Notes under the pieces: model-generated
The model's database searches: none
The model's input: only the letters and a program-made list of their open reading frames with translations
What the model was told of the DNA's origin: nothing
Assembly: GCF_950295315.1 (NCBI RefSeq)
Contig: NC_080181.1
Coordinates: 3,412,726-3,476,725 of the forward strand
Source: Erinaceus europaeus
Taxonomy: Eukaryota; Chordata; Mammalia; Eulipotyphla; Erinaceidae
Direction of reading: 5' to 3'
Length of the DNA: 64,000 nt
In this document: in pieces, positions 2,776 to 53,582 of the stretch
Layout: every line of letters starts with the position of its first letter
Numbering within the stretch: position 1 is the stretch's first letter
Translations under genes and position numbers: made by a program

Positions 2776-2835
2776 AAATAATTTTCCTTTAGTTGATAGA
2801 GTAAAGCACTTATTATGGCAGGCCATTTATTTACT

Positions 2836-3844
2836 TCTTCTTCTAGCGTTTGCCCTTCTTCCGTAGCCAGTCAACAGCGTCAGGTTGAGCCTGATGTAAA
2901 GTTTCGAGACCTCCTTTGAATCTGGAGAGGTGGCAGTCGTTGACTATGTGGGTCATAGTCTGTCTGTAGCCGCAGGGGCAGTTCAGGTCGTCTCTGGCCC
3001 CCCAGCGATGGAACATAGCGGCGCACCGGCCATGGCCTGTTCAATAGCGACTGAGGAGGGCTCAATCATAACGTGCTAGGTCAAAGACGGGTTGACGCTT
3101 GCAGGGGTCTGTGATGAGGTGTTTGTTCTTGACCTCAGCTGACTGCCAACTCTGTTTCCAAGAGTCTGGAACAGAGAAGTTCAGTGTAGGCGTAGGGGAC
3201 CAGATTGGATGACGAGATGTCAAGCGTTGGACAGGGTGGGCGAAGATATCCGCGTATATTGGCAGGTCCGGTCAAGCGTAGACGTGGGAAATGAACTTAG
3301 ATGATGCCGCATCCTGACAAATATCTGGCGGGGCGATGTTGCTAAGAACTGGCAGCCATGGAACCGGGGTGGAATGGATGGTTCCAGAAATTATCCTCAT
3401 GGAGGAATATAATTTGGAATCAACCAAGTGGACATGGGGGCTACGGAACCATACTGGGGCACAGTATTCTGCAGTGGAATAGCATAATGCCAGAGATGAT
3501 GATCGCAGTGTGGAAGCGCTCGCGCCCCATGAGGAGCTGGCCAGTCTTGCAGTGATGTTATTCCTCGCGCCCACCTTTGCTGCAGTTTTTATGAGATGTT
3601 CGTGAAATGACAGAGTGCGATGGAGAGTAACGCCAAGATAGACTGGCTGGGCTTCATGCCGGATTCTCGTATCACCAAGCTGCACATTAAGCTCACGCGA
3701 GGCCGAGGCATGGTGTAGATGGAAAACAGATGATACCGTTTTTTGCAGTGCTAGGGATTAGTCGCCATTTTTTACAGTAATCAGATATCAGAGTCATGTC
3801 TTTCGTGAGTGTTTCCTCGAGGATGTCAAACTTGAATGCCTGAG
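2836..3844 (-). mobile_element. Non-LTR retrotransposon fragment, jockey/CR1-like, 5'-truncated (copy 1)
   Basis: About 1 kb on the minus strand encodes the C-terminal part of a reverse-transcriptase polyprotein of a kind typical of arthropods and other non-mammals. It is unlike L1, L2 or BovB. It is much richer in GC and CpG than its flanks. The 3' end (minus strand) is a TAG stop followed at once by GAAGAAGA. Both edges are bounded by TTTACT (2830-2835 and 3845-3850), a candidate 6-bp target-site duplication. The exact clade is uncertain: jockey, CR1 or a related group. Confidence 0.8.
2843..3844 (-). pseudogene. Broken reverse-transcriptase C-terminal reading frame of copy 1
   Basis: Read on the minus strand, the frame runs through a KWRL-(I)PSTAKTVSSVF segment, then YLGVTL (about 3640-3623), the block ARLASSSWGASASTLR with LALCYSTAEYCAPVW, and the thumb-like MRIISGTI and WLPVLSNIAPP. 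It ends with TGHGRC (3023-3040), a Cys/His motif NCPCGYRQTMTHIVNDC (about 2931-2992) and GGLETLH. The catalytic palm (YADD region) is absent, lost by 5' truncation. Damage: one extra base in a six-base run at 3739-3744 shifts the frame, and three in-frame TGA codons lie at 3272-3274, 3062-3064 and 3041-3043. All three stops fit simple CGA-to-TGA or TGG-to-TGA transitions. The frame ends at the TAG at 2843-2845. It is not a functional gene. Confidence 0.8.
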
Positions 3845-3897
3845 TTTACTAAAATGTTAGGGCACTGTTCTCACTCTACATAAAAATTTTTCAAAAA

Positions 3898-5597: not shown

Positions 5598-5614
5598 TAA
5601 ACTGTGCAATTTAT

Positions 5615-5901
5615 TTATTTATTTTTAAATATTTATTTTATTTATCCCCTTTTGTTGCCCTTGTTGTTTTATTGTTGTAGTTATTATTGTTGTTGTCGTT
5701 GTTGGATAGGACAGAGAGAAATGGAGAGAGGAGGGAAAGACAGAGAAGGGGAGAGAAAGATAGACACCTACAGACCTGCTTCACTGCTTGTGAAGCAATT
5801 CCCCTGCAGGTGGGGAGCCGGGGTTCGAACCGGGATCCTTATGCTGGTCCTTGTGCTTTGCGCCACCTGTGCTTAACCCACTGCGCTACAGCCCGACTCC
5901 C
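5615..5901 (-). repeat. SINE-A, full length, with target-site duplication
   Basis: It has an intact B box (GGTTCGAACC on the minus strand) and A-box region. It is flanked by a perfect 17-bp direct repeat, TAAACTGTGCAATTTAT, at 5598-5614 and 5902-5918. The low divergence and perfect duplication suggest a recent insertion. Confidence 0.95.
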
Positions 5902-12139: not shown

Positions 12140-12945
12140 GGTCCCACTTTCCCGTAGGCTTCTCCCAATTCTTATCAAATAATATTGCATCTGCTGATCG
12201 CAACCTAATCAACACAACGAGTGCCACCTCAACATGCTTCACTTCAGACTGTGTCCAGAGACTTCAGGTGTGGAACGACAACCCTTCAGCTTCATCACTC
12301 GGGTGAGACCCTTCCTTTCATAGTATTCTCTAATTCCATCCCAGGTGGTTCATTTCCTAACAAAGTCCCAAAACCTAGATATAGACCAGGTTCCGGGAGA
12401 TAGAGCATGTTCACAGGTATCCATAAACTAGGGCAAATATATATCTGAAAGCAGTAGTACACTAGAGTTTGCAGTGAGTACCCCCCAACACTTCATCTCC
12501 ACTATTCCAAGCTTTGGGTCCATGATTCTTCAACAATTTGTTTGGCTTCGTATGTTAACTCTCTTTTCAGCCCCCAGGTTCCAGATGCCATCAGGATGCC
12601 AGCCAGGCTTCCCTGGACTGAAGACCCCACCAATGTGTCCTGGAGCTCAGCTTCCCCAGAGACACACCCTACTAGGGAAAGAGAGAGGCAGACTGGGAGT
12701 ATGGACCGACCAGTCAATGCCCATGTTCAGCGGGGAAGCAATTACAGAAGCCAGACCTTCTACCTTCTGCAACCCACAATGACCCTGGGTCCATGCTCCC
12801 AGAGGGATAGAGAATGGGAAAGCTATCAGGGGAGAGGTTGGGATATGGAGATTGGGTGGTGGGAATTGTGTGGAGTTGTACGCCCCCATCCTATGATTTT
12901 GTTAATGTCTCCTTTCTTCAATAAATAAATAATTTTTTAAAAAAG
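12140..12945 (+). mobile_element. Element E copy, 3' portion with A-tail
   Basis: Body segment (TGCTTCACTTCAGACTGTGT, TCACTCGGGTGAGACCC), then the segment TTCAACAATTTGTTTGGCTT to GGGGAAGCAATTACAGAAG, then the 3' end (AATGACCCTGGGTCCATGCT, GGTGGTGGGAATTGTGTGGA) and an AATAAATAAAT A-rich tail. Compared with the copy at 50.1 kb it lacks a large internal part of the body, joined near 12474. It has no long coding frame. It is either the 3' end of a LINE or a non-autonomous element mobilised by L1. Confidence 0.75.
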
Positions 12946-15754: not shown

Positions 15755-16036
15755 GGGAGTCGGGCTGTAGCACAGCGGGTTAAGCGCAGGTGGCGCAAAG
15801 CACAAGGACTGGCATAAGGATCCCGGTTCGAACCCCGGCTCCCCACCTGCAGGGGAGTCACTTCACAGGCGGTGAAGCAGGTCTGCAGGTGTCTATCTTT
15901 CTCTCCTCCTCTCTGTCTTCTCCTCCTCTCTCCATTTCTCTCTGTCCTATCCAACAACGACAACAACAATAATAACTACAACAATAAAACAACAAGGGCA
16001 ACAAAAGGGAATAAATAAATAAAATAAATATTTAAA
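15755..16036 (+). repeat. SINE-A, young, full length
   Basis: The B box is the perfect GGTTCGAACCC. The copy is flanked by a long A-run ending CC on both sides (15739-15754 and about 16035-16050), consistent with insertion into an A-rich target. Confidence 0.95.
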
Positions 16037-16049
16037 AAAAAAAAAAAAC

Positions 16050-27399: not shown

Positions 27400-27832
27400 A
27401 GGCCCCGAATCTCAGCTGCTCTATTCTTACCTCTAGGTTCCTGACTTAAACAATTTGCTCTGCTTTATATTTCCAGCCACGAAATTGCAGATGCTACCAT
27501 GATGCCAACCTGACTTCCCTGGGCAGATAATCTCAATGATGTTCTCTGGAACCCTATCACTCCAGACCACTAGAGAAAGACAGAAACAGGCTTGGAGTAT
27601 GGATCTACCTGCCAACGCCCATGTCCAGCAGAAAATCAATTACAGAAGCCAGACCTTCCACCTTCTGCATCCCATAATGATCGTAGGTCCATACTCCCAG
27701 AGAGATATAGAACAGGAAAACTTGCAATGGAGGGGGTGGGATGTGGAACTCTGGTGGTGGGAATTGTATGGAATTGTACCCCTCTAATCCCATGGTCTTG
27801 TTGATCATTATTAAATCATGACAATAAAAAAA
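27400..27832 (+). mobile_element. Element E 3' fragment with A-tail
   Basis: AACAATTTGCTCTGCTTTAT, GATGCTACCATGATGCCAAC, GAAGCCAGACCTTCCACC, GGTGGTGGGAATTGTATGG, TTGATCATTATTAAATC, A-rich end. Confidence 0.8.
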
Positions 27833-32245: not shown

Positions 32246-32478
32246 CAAGGACTGGCATAAGGATCCCGGTTGGAACCCCAGCTCCCCACCTGCAGGGGAG
32301 TCGCTTCACAGGCGGTGAAGCAGGTCTGCAGGTGTCTGTCTTTCTCTCCCCCTCTCTGTCTTCCCCTCCTCTCTCCATTTCTCTCTGTCCTATCCAACAA
32401 TGACAACAACAATAATAACTACAACAATAAAACAAGGGCAACAAAAGGGAATAAATAAATAAAATAAATATTTAAAAA
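32246..32478 (+). repeat. 5'-truncated SINE-A with target-site duplication
   Basis: The copy starts at CAAGGACTGGCATAAGGATC, so it lacks the A box and the first part of the head; the rest is close to consensus. AAAAACACAGGA flanks it at 32234-32245 and 32479-32490. It cannot drive its own Pol III transcription. Confidence 0.9.
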
Positions 32479-32539
32479 AAAAACACAGGAAAGTGCGTCA
32501 TCACTTCTCCGACAACACAATAATTTGAAAATAACTTAT

Positions 32540-32680
32540 GGGGTGGGGAGGAGATAGCATAATGTTTATGCAAAGAGATACTCATGTCTGAGTCTCCACA
32601 GTGCCACGTTCAATGCCCCAATAGTAACGAATACTAGAGCTGAGTAGTGCTCTGGAAATAAATAATAGTAATAATGAAAA
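32540..32680 (+). repeat. SINE-C
   Basis: GAGGAGATAGCATAATGTTTATGC head, TAGAGCTGAGTAGTGCTCTGG body, ATAAATAATAGTAATAAT tail. Confidence 0.85.
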
Positions 32681-32829
32681 CTACATTCTGGAAACAGCTT
32701 AAGTCACAAGTAATTCACTTTTTTCCCTACATTCTTGTTTGACCATAGAATTATCTAACAGAATATGCCATTTGTTTCATAAAGGATTTCCAAATCGGAT
32801 CCAGATTTGCGGTTCTCTATACCCCTGTC

Positions 32830-33490
32830 CAACCTGAGCGCAGAAATGCAGCATTTCGAGGGCAGAGCACACGTGCGAATCCCTGAGGCAGCCGGCTCGC
32901 TCGCACTGCGAAGGGCAAAATGAGTTTTCCAGAAAGCAAGGCCTAAACTATTCGCTCCTGTCACTGAAGCGCGGCTTCTGAGACTCTCCCCTGAACCAGT
33001 GCATCATTATCCAGGGAAACACACCCACAGAAGTGCGTGGGGAGGAGGGGAATGTGCTGCCCTAGAGGGAACCAGGGCAGGAACCCGGGGAGGCCGGCCA
33101 GACGGTGCTGCCAGCCACCTGCTGACCGCAGCCACAGTCTCCGCGCCCCAAGTCCAGGCCCGGCCTGCGCTGCGCGCACCGCCTGGGCTCCCACTGCGGG
33201 CTGGGGCGAGGGCATTTGCAAGGAAGCCCCATACCTGAATGCTGTGCAGGTGTCCCCAGCGCCCTAAAAGTTCCAGCAGGCCAGGCCACCTTGAGGAAGG
33301 ACACACAAGAATTCTTGTGGTCAGGGAAAGAAAGCCCTGCAGGCGTGCTTCCACCACAGAAGCAAAGGCGCTGCACGTGAAACACGGCTGCCCGCGCCCG
33401 AGGAGGCGGAGCGGAGGGGTCTGTGCACCTGCCATGCGCATTGGCGATGTGCATCCGCCGGGGCCTCCGCCTGGACTACTTTACACTGGC
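32830..33490. promoter_or_regulatory. CpG island, possible promoter
   Basis: About 650 bases are GC-rich with many CpG sites (for example GGCTCGCTCGCACTGCG, CTGCGCTGCGCGCACCGCC and GAGGCGGAGCGGAGG), against a CpG-poor background. It is not a repeat I recognise. A GAGGCGGAGC motif and an inverted CCAAT motif (ATTGG near 33439) fit a promoter but do not settle its direction. Overlapping open frames on both strands (up to 144 codons, minus, 33007-33441) are expected from GC-rich DNA and have no recognisable domain. It could be the 5' end of a gene or non-coding RNA outside or beyond what I can see, or an orphan island. Confidence 0.55.
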
Positions 33491-33546
33491 TGGCTGTGCT
33501 CTGGAGGCTGAGTCCACAGTCTTGGTTTAGGCTGTAGGTGATTTTT

Positions 33547-33617
33547 TTTTCCCTCCAGGGTTATCACTGAGGCTCAGTGCATGCACTATGAATCCACTGC
33601 TCATCGAGGCCATCTTT
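33547..33617 (-). repeat. SINE-A long-form end, interrupted by a younger SINE-A
   Basis: CCTCCAGGGTTATCACTGAG and TGCACTATGAATCCACTGC are the long-form end of a minus-strand copy that resumes at 33909. Confidence 0.9.
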
Positions 33618-33908
33618 TTTTTTTTTTTAATATTTATTTTATTTATTTATTCCCTTTGTTGCCCTTGTTGTTTTATTGTTGTAGTTATTATTGTTGTTGT
33701 CATTGTTGGGTAGGACAGAGAGAAATGGAGAGAGGAGGGGAAGACAGAGAGGGGGAGAGAAAGACAGACACCTGCAGACCTGCTTCACCGCCTGTGAAGC
33801 GACTCCCCTGCAGGTGGGGAGCCGGGGGCTCGAACCGGGATCCTTATGCCGGTCCTTGTGCTTTGTGCCACCTGCGCTTAGCCCGCTGCGCTACAGCCCG
33901 ACTCCCTG
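33618..33908 (-). repeat. Young SINE-A nested in an older SINE-A
   Basis: Nearly consensus, with a GGCTCGAACCGGG B-box region and GCGCTACAGCCCGACTCCC head. GAGGCCATCTTT (33606-33617) and GAGGCCACCTTT (33909-33920) flank it as a 12-bp duplication with one mismatch. Confidence 0.95.
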
Positions 33909-34597: not shown

Positions 34598-34905
34598 AAT
34601 GTGTCCCAATATGTCTCAGCTCTCCAGAGCTCTGTCCCACTAGGGAAAGACAGAAACAGGCTGGGGGTATGGATCCACCTGCTAACATCCTTGTCCAGAA
34701 GAGAAGAAATTACAGAAGCCAGACCTTCCATTTCTGTACCCCCAAAAGAATTTTGGTTCATACTCCCAGAGAGATTAGATAATAGGGAAGCTTCCAATAG
34801 AGGGGAAGGGATATGGACCTCTTCGGAGTGGTGGGAACTATATGGAACTGTATCCCTGTTATCTTACAATCTTGTTAACCATTATTAAATCACTAACAAA
34901 AAAGA
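34598..34905 (+). mobile_element. Element E 3' fragment with A-tail
   Basis: CCCACTAGGGAAAGACAGAA, GGGTATGGATCCACCTGC, AATTACAGAAGCCAGACC, TTGTTAACCATTATTAAATC, A-rich end. Confidence 0.8.
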
Positions 34906-36002: not shown

Positions 36003-36297
36003 GGGGAGTCGGGCTGTAGCGCAGCGGGTTAAGCGCAGGTGGCGCAAAGCACAAAGACCGGCATAAGGATCCCGGTTCGAACCCCGGCTCCCCACCTGCA
36101 GGGAAGTCGCTTCACAGGTGGTGAAGCAGGTCTGCAGGTGTCTATCTTTCTCTCCTCCTCTCTGTCTTCCCCTCCTCTCTCCATTTCTCTCTGTCCTATC
36201 CAACAACGACAACAACAATAATAACTACAACAATAAAACAACAAGGGCAACAAAAGGGAATAAATAAATAAAATAAATATAAAAAAATTAAAAAAAA
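36003..36297 (+). repeat. SINE-A, young, with 15-bp target-site duplication
   Basis: Head GGGAGTCGGGCTGTAGCGCA, perfect GGTTCGAACCC B box. AAGAATGGGAAACTA flanks it at 35988-36002 and 36298-36312 without mismatch. Confidence 0.95.
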
Positions 36298-38317: not shown

Positions 38318-38475
38318 TGTACCCTGGCATCACAATAAATCAGAGCTCAGGCTCAACCTGACACTGTTGACTGGCTACGGAAGGAGGGCAAACGCTAGAA
38401 GAAGAAGAGCTCAGCAGTACCCTAGTCTTTCTTTCTCTATATCTTTCTCTCTGTATTCCTCCCATTAAAAGATAA
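38318..38475 (+). repeat. SINE-C, 5'-truncated, carrying the retrotransposon insertion
   Basis: GCATCACAATAAATCAGAGC before the insertion and AGCAGTACCCTAGTCTTTCT after it are the SINE-C body. The CT-rich part and a weak A-tail follow. Confidence 0.75.
38351..38405 (+). mobile_element. Same non-LTR retrotransposon, 55-bp 3'-end insertion (copy 2)
   Basis: The 55 bases match the 3' end of copy 1 at 2836-2890 (reverse complement) with two differences. They encode the same final residues (DWLR then KGKR in copy 1, EGKR here), the TAG stop and GAAGAAGA. AGAGCTCAG flanks the insertion at 38342-38350 and 38406-38414. Removing it and one repeat restores a normal SINE-C body (AATCAGAGCTCAGCAGTACCC). 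Confidence 0.9.
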
Positions 38476-40930: not shown

Positions 40931-41214
40931 GGGAGTCGGGCTGTAGCGCAGCGGGTTAAGCGCAGGTGGCGCAAAGCACAAGGACCGGCATAAGGATCCC
41001 GGTTCGAACCCCGGCTCCCCACCTGCAGGGGCATCACTTCACAGGCGGTGAAGCAGGTCTGCAGGTGTCTATCTTTCTCTCCTCCTCTCTGCCTTCCCCT
41101 CCTCTCTCCATTTCTCTCTGTCCTATCCAACAACGACAACAACAATAATAACTACAACAATAAAAAAAACAACAAGGGCAACAAAAGGGAATAAATAAAT
41201 AAATATTAAAAAAA
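40931..41214 (+). repeat. SINE-A, young, with 19-bp target-site duplication
   Basis: Near-consensus copy with A box TAGCGCAGCGG and B box GGTTCGAACCC. AAAAGAAATGTATGAAATG flanks it at 40912-40930 and 41215-41233 without mismatch. Confidence 0.95.
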
Positions 41215-41233
41215 AAAAGAAATGTATGAAATG

Positions 41234-42003: not shown

Positions 42004-42457
42004 AGCTGAATCAGGGAAGAAAGTAACTCCCAAATATGAAAAACATATATAAACCATGCACCGTAAACCCCATTGATCTGATTGGAGGCCCATATTCAAC
42101 ACAAGGGCCTATGTAACCTCTGCATCCTTGTATGTCTGAGCTCCCCCATTCCATGATCATAGCTAGGAACATTCTAGGCTGCACTCATTTCAGGACCCGT
42201 CTTCCTCAGTTGGCAAATTATGTTGACCCAGTCTCCCTTTGGAGAGTGGGGCAGTCCTACCATTGTTAACCCACATTGAAGGCAAGATCCCATGAAGATC
42301 CTGGGTACATGCTCCCAGAAAGATAAAGAATAAGAAAACTTCCAATGGAGGGGATGGGATGTGGAACTCAGGCGGTGGGAATTGTGTGGAACTGTACACC
42401 TCTTAGCCTATGGTCTTGTTGATCATTATTAAATCAATTGAAAAAAAAGAAAAAAAA
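42004..42457 (+). mobile_element. Element E copy with inverted 5' segment
   Basis: The left part (CCCAAATATG, GTAAACCCCATTGATCTG, CTTCCTCAGTTGGCAAATTA) is the element E body in the opposite orientation to the 3' end that follows (GGTGGGAATTGTGTGGAACT, GATCATTATTAAATC, A-tail). The junction is near 42290. Confidence 0.7.
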
Positions 42458-50103: not shown

Positions 50104-51777
50104 TTTTTTTCTTTTTCAGCATTTATTTTTTTTTATTTATACAAAGGAAACATTGACTAACCCATAGTATAAGAGGGATATAACTTCACACAATTCCCAC
50201 CACCAGAACTCCTATCCCATCCCTTCCCCTAATAGCTTTCCTATTCTTTAACCCTCTGGGAGTATGGACCCAAGGTCATTGTGGGATGCAGAAGGTCTGA
50301 CTTCTGTAATTACTTCCCTGCTGAAACCTCTTGCTTCCTCTTTAGAGACTATATGTCCCCCAGTCCTGGAACCTCTAGGATGGAGCTCACTTTCCTGCAT
50401 ACTTCTCTCAATTCATACCAAATTATACTGCATCCGCCAATCCCAACATAATCAATGCAACGAGTACCACCTCAGCATGCTTCACTTCAGACTGTGTCCA
50501 GAGACATCAGGTGTGGAATGACAACCCTTCACCCTCATTACTCGGGTGAGACCTTTCCTTTCATAGTATTCTCTAATTCCATTCTAGGAGGGAATTCACT
50601 TCCTAACATAATCCCAAAACCTAGATATAGACTAGATCCCGTGAGAGAGAGCATATGTCCACATGTATCCACAAATTAAGAAAAATATATACCTGAAAGC
50701 AAAAATACACAATAGTCTGTAGTGAGTCAGTATAAAGTTCATAATGAAATAATGTCCACTTAGACTTAGATACCCTCCTCACCTACTTCCTATTATAGTT
50801 CTCCCATTCACTCCAAAGCTAACCTCATCAAAGCAAGGACTGCAAAAGCTGAATAAGGGCAAGAGACTGGCATACTTTAACGATGACTCTTTAGTCAGTA
50901 TCAGGCCACCCCATTTGGGGAGTTCTGAGATTTCTAAACAGACATGATGGGCCTAGACCTCGAATAAATCCTTCTCTCCATTGTTACTGGTCATTCCTAT
51001 CAGGAACAAGACAATAGACCCCTTTGTGGGCCCCCATAGGACCTTGCTCTCAACTTGGATCAACAATGGTAGAGAATGTTCCAACCTCCAAAGGGAGGCT
51101 GGACAATATACTCTATGCTACACCTGAGGAAGATGGGTCCTGATATTGGGGCAGCTTGGAACATTCCTACTTATGACCACAGAATGTGAGCTCAGATCTA
51201 CAGGGAGGCAGAGGTCACATAGGCTCCTAAGCTGAATATGGGCCCTAGATCACATCAGATTGATGGGGTTTACAGTCAACAATATTTATGCACCTTTCCC
51301 ATATTTGGGAGCTAGTCTCTTCTGTGACTGTGATCCTTCTGCCAGCCATGACATCATCTCCCCAGACAATAATTAGGATCCACCTGCATATCAGATTTCA
51401 GGCTTAGGCCAAAAAACAAAACAAACAAACAAACAAAAACACTAGTATAGCCACAGGCACTTTGGAATATAAGTAAAATATGCCTACTAGCTATCTAGAA
51501 AATGGAGGATCCCCCCCCCCACTCTTCATCTGCACTATTCCAGCCTTTAGGTCCATGATTGGTCAACAATTTGTTTGGCTTTGTATGTTAACTCTCTTTT
51601 CAGCCACCAGGTTCCAGATGCCAGCATGATGCTGACCAGACTTCCCTGGACAGACAACCCCACCAATGTGTCCTGGAGCTCCAATTCCCCAGAACCCCAC
51701 CCCACTAGGGAAAGAGAGCCAGGCTGGGAGTATGGATCGACCTGTCAACGCCCATATTGAGCCGGGAAGCAATTACA
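50104..51777 (-). mobile_element. Element E, long copy with inverted 5' part and target-site duplication
   Basis: The 3' end is on the minus strand (T-run at 50104; CACACAATTCCCACCACCAG; TCTGGGAGTATGGACCC; to about 50335). The rest (about 50336-51777) is in the opposite orientation and ends GCCGGGAAGCAATTACA, a stretch that also occurs, reverse-complemented, next to the 3' part. GAATATAAGGTTTCTAAT (50086-50103) and GAATATAAGGTTTTTAAT (51778-51795) enclose the whole, so it is one insertion event. The body has no long coding frame. Confidence 0.8.
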
Positions 51778-51799
51778 GAATATAAGGTTTTTAATACCA

Positions 51800-53144: not shown

Positions 53145-53582
53145 GCCTTTAGGTTCCAGATTATTAAACAATTTGTTCTTCTTTATATCTTAATGGTTTT
53201 TCAGACACCGAATTGCAGATGCTACCATGATGCCAACCTGAATTCCTTGGGCAGACAACCTCAACAATGTATCCTGAAACCCCATCTCTCCTGAGTCCTG
53301 CCCCCTGCCCTCGGGAAAGATAAAACAGGCTGGGGGTATGGATCCACCTGCCAACACCCATGTTCAGTGGAGAAGCAATTACAGAAGCCAGGCCTCCCAC
53401 CTTCTGCACCCTACCCCATAATGATCCTGGGTCCATACTCCCAGAGGTATAAAGAATAGGGAATCTTCCAGTGGAGGGGATGTGATATGGAATCCTGGTG
53501 GTGGGAAATGTGCGCAATTTTACCCCTCTTATCCTATGGTTTTGTTCATATTTTCTATTTTTTAATTTCATAAGTAAATTAG
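53145..53582 (+). mobile_element. Element E 3' fragment with A-rich end
   Basis: AAACAATTTGTTCTTCTTTA, GATGCTACCATGATGCCAAC, GGGTATGGATCCACCTGC, CATAATGATCCTGGGTCCAT, CCCCTCTTATCCTATGG. Confidence 0.8.

Follow-up and report, generated by a model that had tools for sequence, protein, structure and literature searches.

Vingi is a clade of non-LTR retrotransposons, related to Ingi, that was reportedly described from hedgehogs by Kojima, Kapitonov and Jurka in 2011. Its members are said to be without RNase H and to be accompanied in the European hedgehog by internally deleted derivatives, and the 2011 paper reportedly took horizontal transfer to be implied, with room left for vertical descent. 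In the available portion of PMC5753468 the clade is reported in hedgehogs and reptiles, and X12_LINE is given as a Vingi relic in human; a table in PMC9004415, a source seen in extract, has one pre-amniote Vingi protein fossil in human. The excerpted text of PMC3183009 counts 311 copies of Vingi-1N3_EE in hedgehog at under 1% divergence, and refers to 'older likely horizontal transfers in mammals such as Vingi TEs in hedgehogs'.

HDV-like ribozymes are described at the 5' ends of the trypanosome L1Tc/ingi elements, where they are common to internally deleted relatives (PMC4035085, in extract), and at the 5' end of R2 (PMC3774820, in extract). The excerpt of a 2024 paper (PMC11620745) has retrotransposon ribozymes as unseen in mammals except for one in LINE-1.

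The locus studied here lies in a window of 64,000 nucleotides of the European hedgehog genome (Erinaceus europaeus, assembly GCF_950295315.1, contig NC_080181.1), this term being used for the whole stretch of DNA that was analysed. Taken as one whole, our observations are very probably best explained by a Vingi-1-type non-LTR retrotransposon insertion that is dead and 5'-truncated, with the 5' ribozyme of its full-length relatives as the predicted part of that explanation. The element belongs to a kind known from hedgehogs, and a likely horizontal transfer has been published for that kind, so the idea of transfer is not new. In common with Vingi-1_EE and Vingi-1N3_EE of the European hedgehog, it has the same type of host, a single frame for endonuclease and reverse transcriptase in which we found no RNase H, and a young age, with internally deleted copies alongside (18 of the 59 sampled here). 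The nearest parallel to its 5' end is Pr77 of L1Tc/ingi, an HDV-like ribozyme of ~77 nt at the extreme 5' end of autonomous and internally deleted copies alike; L1Tc differs in carrying RNase H, Pr77 is also a promoter (PMC4035085, as excerpted), and the hedgehog motif is a predicted one. The arthropod R2 ribozyme likewise has an HDV-like fold at the 5' junction and an L3 with conserved G and U, but R2 inserts specifically into 28S rDNA, and its P1 relies on 28S sequence in seven arthropods (PMC3774820, as excerpted), whereas the hedgehog element is dispersed and its whole predicted fold lies within the element. Human LINE-1 is a mammalian LINE whose 5' UTR holds a self-cleaving motif; that motif is twister-sister-like and inactive in most homologues (PMC11620745, as excerpted), in contrast to the predicted HDV-like motif of the hedgehog. 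The features of the window that belong to the family are as follows.

2834..3846, minus strand: 5'-truncated copy of a 3.08-kb LINE, from element nucleotide ~2071 to the 3' end (96-97% identity to the 39 best-scored genomic relatives)
2843..3846, minus strand: C-terminal third of the element's one frame; the part present begins directly after YADD, ends at the stop and is shifted once, near 3744 (translation)
3272..3274, minus strand: in-frame TGA (translation)
3062..3064, minus strand: in-frame TGA (translation)
3041..3043, minus strand: in-frame TGA (translation)
2933..2980, minus strand: CPC-x7-H-x4-C cysteine-histidine motif (sequence and translation)
2843..2845, minus strand: TAG that closes the frame, 9 nt short of the element 3' end (translation)
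2834..2842, minus strand: (AAG)3 tail, the element 3' end (sequence)
2830..2835, minus strand: AGTAAA, perhaps the 3' member of a 6-bp target-site duplication (weak; 2-nt overlap with the tail)
3845..3850, minus strand: possible 5' copy of the same 6-bp duplication, AGTAAA (weak; 2-nt overlap with the element)
38347..38407, plus strand: second copy of the same LINE family, 3' end only, ~60 bp; the flanks match over 9 nt (AGAGCTCAG)

The window copy comprises the last ~1,010 bp of the LINE on the minus strand, its bounds being set by homology to other genomic copies. The motifs on which the original prediction was built, YLGVTL, ALCYSTAEYCAPVW, MRIISGTI, TGHGRC and CPC-x7-H-x4-C, all translate from one minus-strand frame, and the damage it had listed was found as described, namely one frameshift (one extra base near 3744) and TGA codons at 3274, 3064 and 3043, with the TAG at 2845 ending the open reading frame. 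The upstream piece of the copy (TQAFKFDILEETLTKDM...) is in a different frame from the motif-bearing part. The proposal that this is the C-terminal third of a reverse-transcriptase protein holds, the copy covering the final third of one frame of 993 codons. A refinement is that the copy starts right after YADD and is therefore without the reverse-transcriptase catalytic residues. No family was found in its protein part in Pfam or NCBIfam (a 304-aa C-terminal part in the Pfam scan), a search of the PDB returned a single match, to an antibody chain at an E-value of 0.65, and the viral, genome, phage and plasmid collections searched gave no relative. The claim of a high CpG density was borne out, with an observed-to-expected ratio of 0.735 inside the element against 0.12 in the left flank, 0.20 in the right flank and 0.20 in the whole window; the value for the element is the maximum among the 1,010-base windows scanned.

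A DNA search of the hedgehog's own genome (2.72 Gb in 1,172 contigs) gave 6,570 first-look candidates, and the best 40 of these were scored. They are the window copy itself and 39 others that are 96-97% identical over ~1,010 bp, so the copy is not a chance resemblance. With a 33-nt pattern and up to 3 mismatches we counted 37,636 3' ends genome-wide, and the reversed-pattern control gave 0. The alignments of ten long copies have a common 3' end and differing 5' start points, and three of the ten, L012, L013 and L018, extend to the 5' end of the element at ~3.08 kb. We also used a sample of 59 copies with an exact 33-nt 3' end (L019-L078 without L059), all on one contig and chosen among the first 100 listed of the 37,636 3' ends. 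In 18 of them an internal deletion joins the 5' end to the 3' end to give a short copy of ~155-200 bp, 25 begin after the element's first bases, and 16 continue beyond the sequence retrieved; as the pieces retrieved were of 421 or 1,551 bases, full-length copies in this sample are scored as running off or as 5'-truncated and never as 5'-intact. Young copies are favoured both in this sample, picked by exact 33-nt 3' end, and in L009-L018, picked as best matches of the window copy.

Perfect flanking duplications of at least 8 nt were found at 16 of 32 copies, shorter or imperfect ones at 10, the window copy with its 6-nt AGTAAA among them, and none at the other 6, in a scan that let a duplication take in as many as 4 letters of the element. 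Shared 3' ends, varied 5' starts and flanking duplications are what target-primed reverse transcription leaves behind when 5' truncation is frequent. The copies, their truncation and the duplications are observed; the enzymatic steps would be those expected from the known biology of such elements.

The full-length layout of ~3.08 kb consists of a 5' motif at nt 1-70, an AUG at 92, one 993-codon frame, a TAG stop (at nt 3071 in L018 or 3072 in L012) and, directly abutting it, the terminal (AAG)n tail. The frame was read in L018, which itself carries stops. In the 734-aa open part of L018, Pfam finds RVT_1 (E 1.1e-31), Exo_endo_phos_2 (1.3e-10) and Exo_endo_phos (5.7e-10), with the accessions PF03372, PF14529 and PF00078 between them, so that an AP-type endonuclease and a reverse transcriptase share one frame, an arrangement expected of the Vingi clade; a C-terminal CCHC motif follows them. 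No RNase H family was found by Pfam in this 734-aa frame or in the 304-aa C-terminal part from the window copy. The solved structures that match best belong to R2 (47.9 bits) and human L1 (46.5 bits), and neither match is close. When the genome was searched with the protein, 61 of 49,034 candidates were scored, L018 included; in 23 of these 61 the matched 734 aa are free of stops, and 3 of the 23 lie in a reported frame of at least 995 aa. On this basis the LINE family may still be active.

The original prediction had placed the element with the jockey/CR1 type and apart from L1. It was right that this is a non-LTR retrotransposon and that it is not L1, since human L1 ORF2p matches it only remotely (46.5 bits over 223 aa); the jockey/CR1 label is imprecise, and the anatomy, host and literature fit Vingi, an assignment that draws on these three and not on a direct sequence match or a tree. 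That the copy could be an old mammalian relic of L2, CR1, RTE/BovB or L1 is suggested by its remote resemblance to the reverse transcriptases of L1 and R2, but the similarity to human L1 ORF2p is too distant for an L1 relic, which we rejected on this ground, and 96-97% identity to 39 other copies together with a CpG ratio of 0.735 makes any relic of this kind highly improbable. The protein of the window element resembles those of invertebrate elements, and this resemblance would favour contamination of the assembly by a parasite or arthropod. Against it stand the genome-wide 3' ends, 37,636 of them, and the finding of scored copies on many large contigs with flanking duplications. Contamination was rejected on this evidence, and we give it almost no weight.

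The window copy is young, as had been proposed: it differs from the majority of 16 other copies at 10 of 872 non-CpG sites (1.15%), and at 11 of 137 CpG-possible sites (8.0%). Across the 17 copies dated, with L012, L013, L018 and the short copies left out, non-CpG divergence is 0.22-4.0%. At textbook mammalian rates, 1% divergence corresponds to a few million years. Since the dated copies were chosen as best matches or by the exact 33-mer, old copies would be missed, and the bias of the sample towards young copies means that these figures date the copies and not the arrival of the family. This bears on how Vingi came to be in the hedgehog. Vertical inheritance from early amniotes, with loss in most mammals and with survival and re-expansion in hedgehogs, would need no horizontal transfer; it is possible because human holds Vingi relics (X12_LINE and one pre-amniote fossil), and the presence of Vingi elements in reptiles is also in its favour. 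The youth of the dated copies speaks against such descent, with the reservation about sampling just given, as does the description of the hedgehog case as a likely horizontal transfer in the excerpt of PMC3183009. We hold vertical descent to be somewhat doubtful.

The first 70 nt of the full-length and the short copies fit an HDV-like ribozyme, a fold that was noted by eye before testing. The window copy has no 5' end and is consequently without this part. In the three full-length copies the motif is placed as follows.

L012:3987-4056, minus strand: predicted HDV-like ribozyme, first 70 nt
L013:6733-6802, plus strand: predicted HDV-like ribozyme, first 70 nt
L018:3551-3620, minus strand: predicted HDV-like ribozyme, first 70 nt

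The predicted fold is a nested double pseudoknot of P1, P2, P3 and P4 that starts from the first base of the element. In the typical sequence P1 has 7 bp, P2 has 6, P3 has 3 with a 7-nt L3, and P4 has 3; J4/2 ends in CUGA, and P1.1 looks weak. When 141-base pieces of three copies were scanned with cmscan, RF00094 (HDV_ribozyme) ranked first of 4,227 families in all three, at full length and on the sense strand, with scores of 21.7, 24.3 and 21.3 bits (E 0.19, 0.061 and 0.23) against a gathering score of 50. Pairs are formed in 95.4% of 152 cells across 8 copies, compared with 30-46% when the partner is slid. Columns T20 and G25, the U and G of L3, and C61, the predicted catalytic C of J4/2, are invariant in all 8 aligned copies. 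J4/2 reads CTGA in 16 of 18 copies, a set picked by an L3 search word, so that L3 itself is not tested there; three 5'-intact copies whose core the search word did not match (L055, L066 and L078) were dropped from it and L012, L013 and L018 were added. In 8 of 18 short copies the first G marks the exact end of the flanking match, and in the other 10 that end lies within -4 to +6 nt; the ends were chosen by script, and some matches are of only 5-7 nt. A 46-nt pattern with up to 3 mismatches finds 8,467 related 5' ends genome-wide, and its control finds 0.

The pseudoknot could instead be chance pairing or an inactive relic, and several results lean that way. The three pieces, at 21.3-24.3 bits, fall short of the Rfam gathering score of 50, an Rfam scan of 8 whole loci gave no ribozyme hit at E 1, and RF00094 run over the whole genome gave 0 hits at E 0.001 (86 of 48,892 candidates being scored), as it also did in all 14 control genomes. 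None of the 19 pairs is changed on both sides among 8 copies, and pairing across these copies is in no excess over column shuffles; such compensatory changes are not to be expected, since the copies are young and dead. Every pair and key residue is kept in only 7 of the 18 copies checked, which is as expected of decaying copies. Of the 8 5' ends then in the sample, 5 escaped a topology scan; its only 3 hits in 454 kb (both strands counted), however, are each at an element 5' end in the sense orientation, and simulated sequence of the same size gave 0 and 1. Chance is further opposed by the typical 70-mer, which forms 19 of 19 pairs where the best of 20,000 dinucleotide shuffles forms 17, although the geometry of this test, like the rules of the topology scan, was fixed after the motif had been seen. 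The first rank of RF00094 in all three short pieces, over its full length and on the right strand, and the coincidence of the motif with the first base of the element, at which the flanking match ends in 8 of 18 copies, also speak against an accident. We judge chance pairing or an inactive relic to be unlikely.

We consider it probable that the hedgehog Vingi LINE has a 5' HDV-like self-cleaving ribozyme, like its trypanosome Ingi-clade relatives, and that the genome would thus hold more than 8,000 ribozyme-derived loci, some of them intact by sequence and near-identical to one another. In the mechanism that we propose, the first 70 nt of a full-length copy would form the ribozyme ~20 nt before the start codon and, by cutting at the element 5' end, would free the element RNA from an upstream co-transcript. 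Going by the excerpted PMC11620745 and our literature search, the predicted motif would be the first of the HDV-like type in any mammalian retrotransposon; among titles and abstract openings of the open-licence literature we found none that reports a ribozyme for Vingi or for a retrotransposon of hedgehogs. If active, it would bring HDV-like processing of LINE RNA into a mammal, account for the sharpness of the 5' ends in full-length and short copies, and link Vingi to the trypanosome Ingi clade through a shared 5' device; many hedgehog insertions in transcribed regions could then cut host transcripts.

Some further observations concern the variety of short copies and the rest of the window. 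L029 and L050 are short copies with a common altered P1 start (GTGGTGC), and they perhaps represent a subfamily with a weakened ribozyme. Elsewhere in the window a short repeat that is tRNA-like by eye occurs in many copies and both orientations (5610-5901, 15755-16048, 33615-33907, 36004-36297, 40931-41224 and others), and in appearance it resembles the hedgehog ERI-1 SINE. A second CpG-rich stretch at 32451-33510, with an observed-to-expected ratio of ~0.65 per kb, is possibly a CpG island; Pfam gave no hit in the two of its open reading frames that were scanned. Finally, a dispersed repeat family of ~370 bp (D12, D16 and D19) is present at 12564-12932, 27470-27830 and 53198-53574, with parts of it at 34637-34730, 42287-42448 and 51597-51793.
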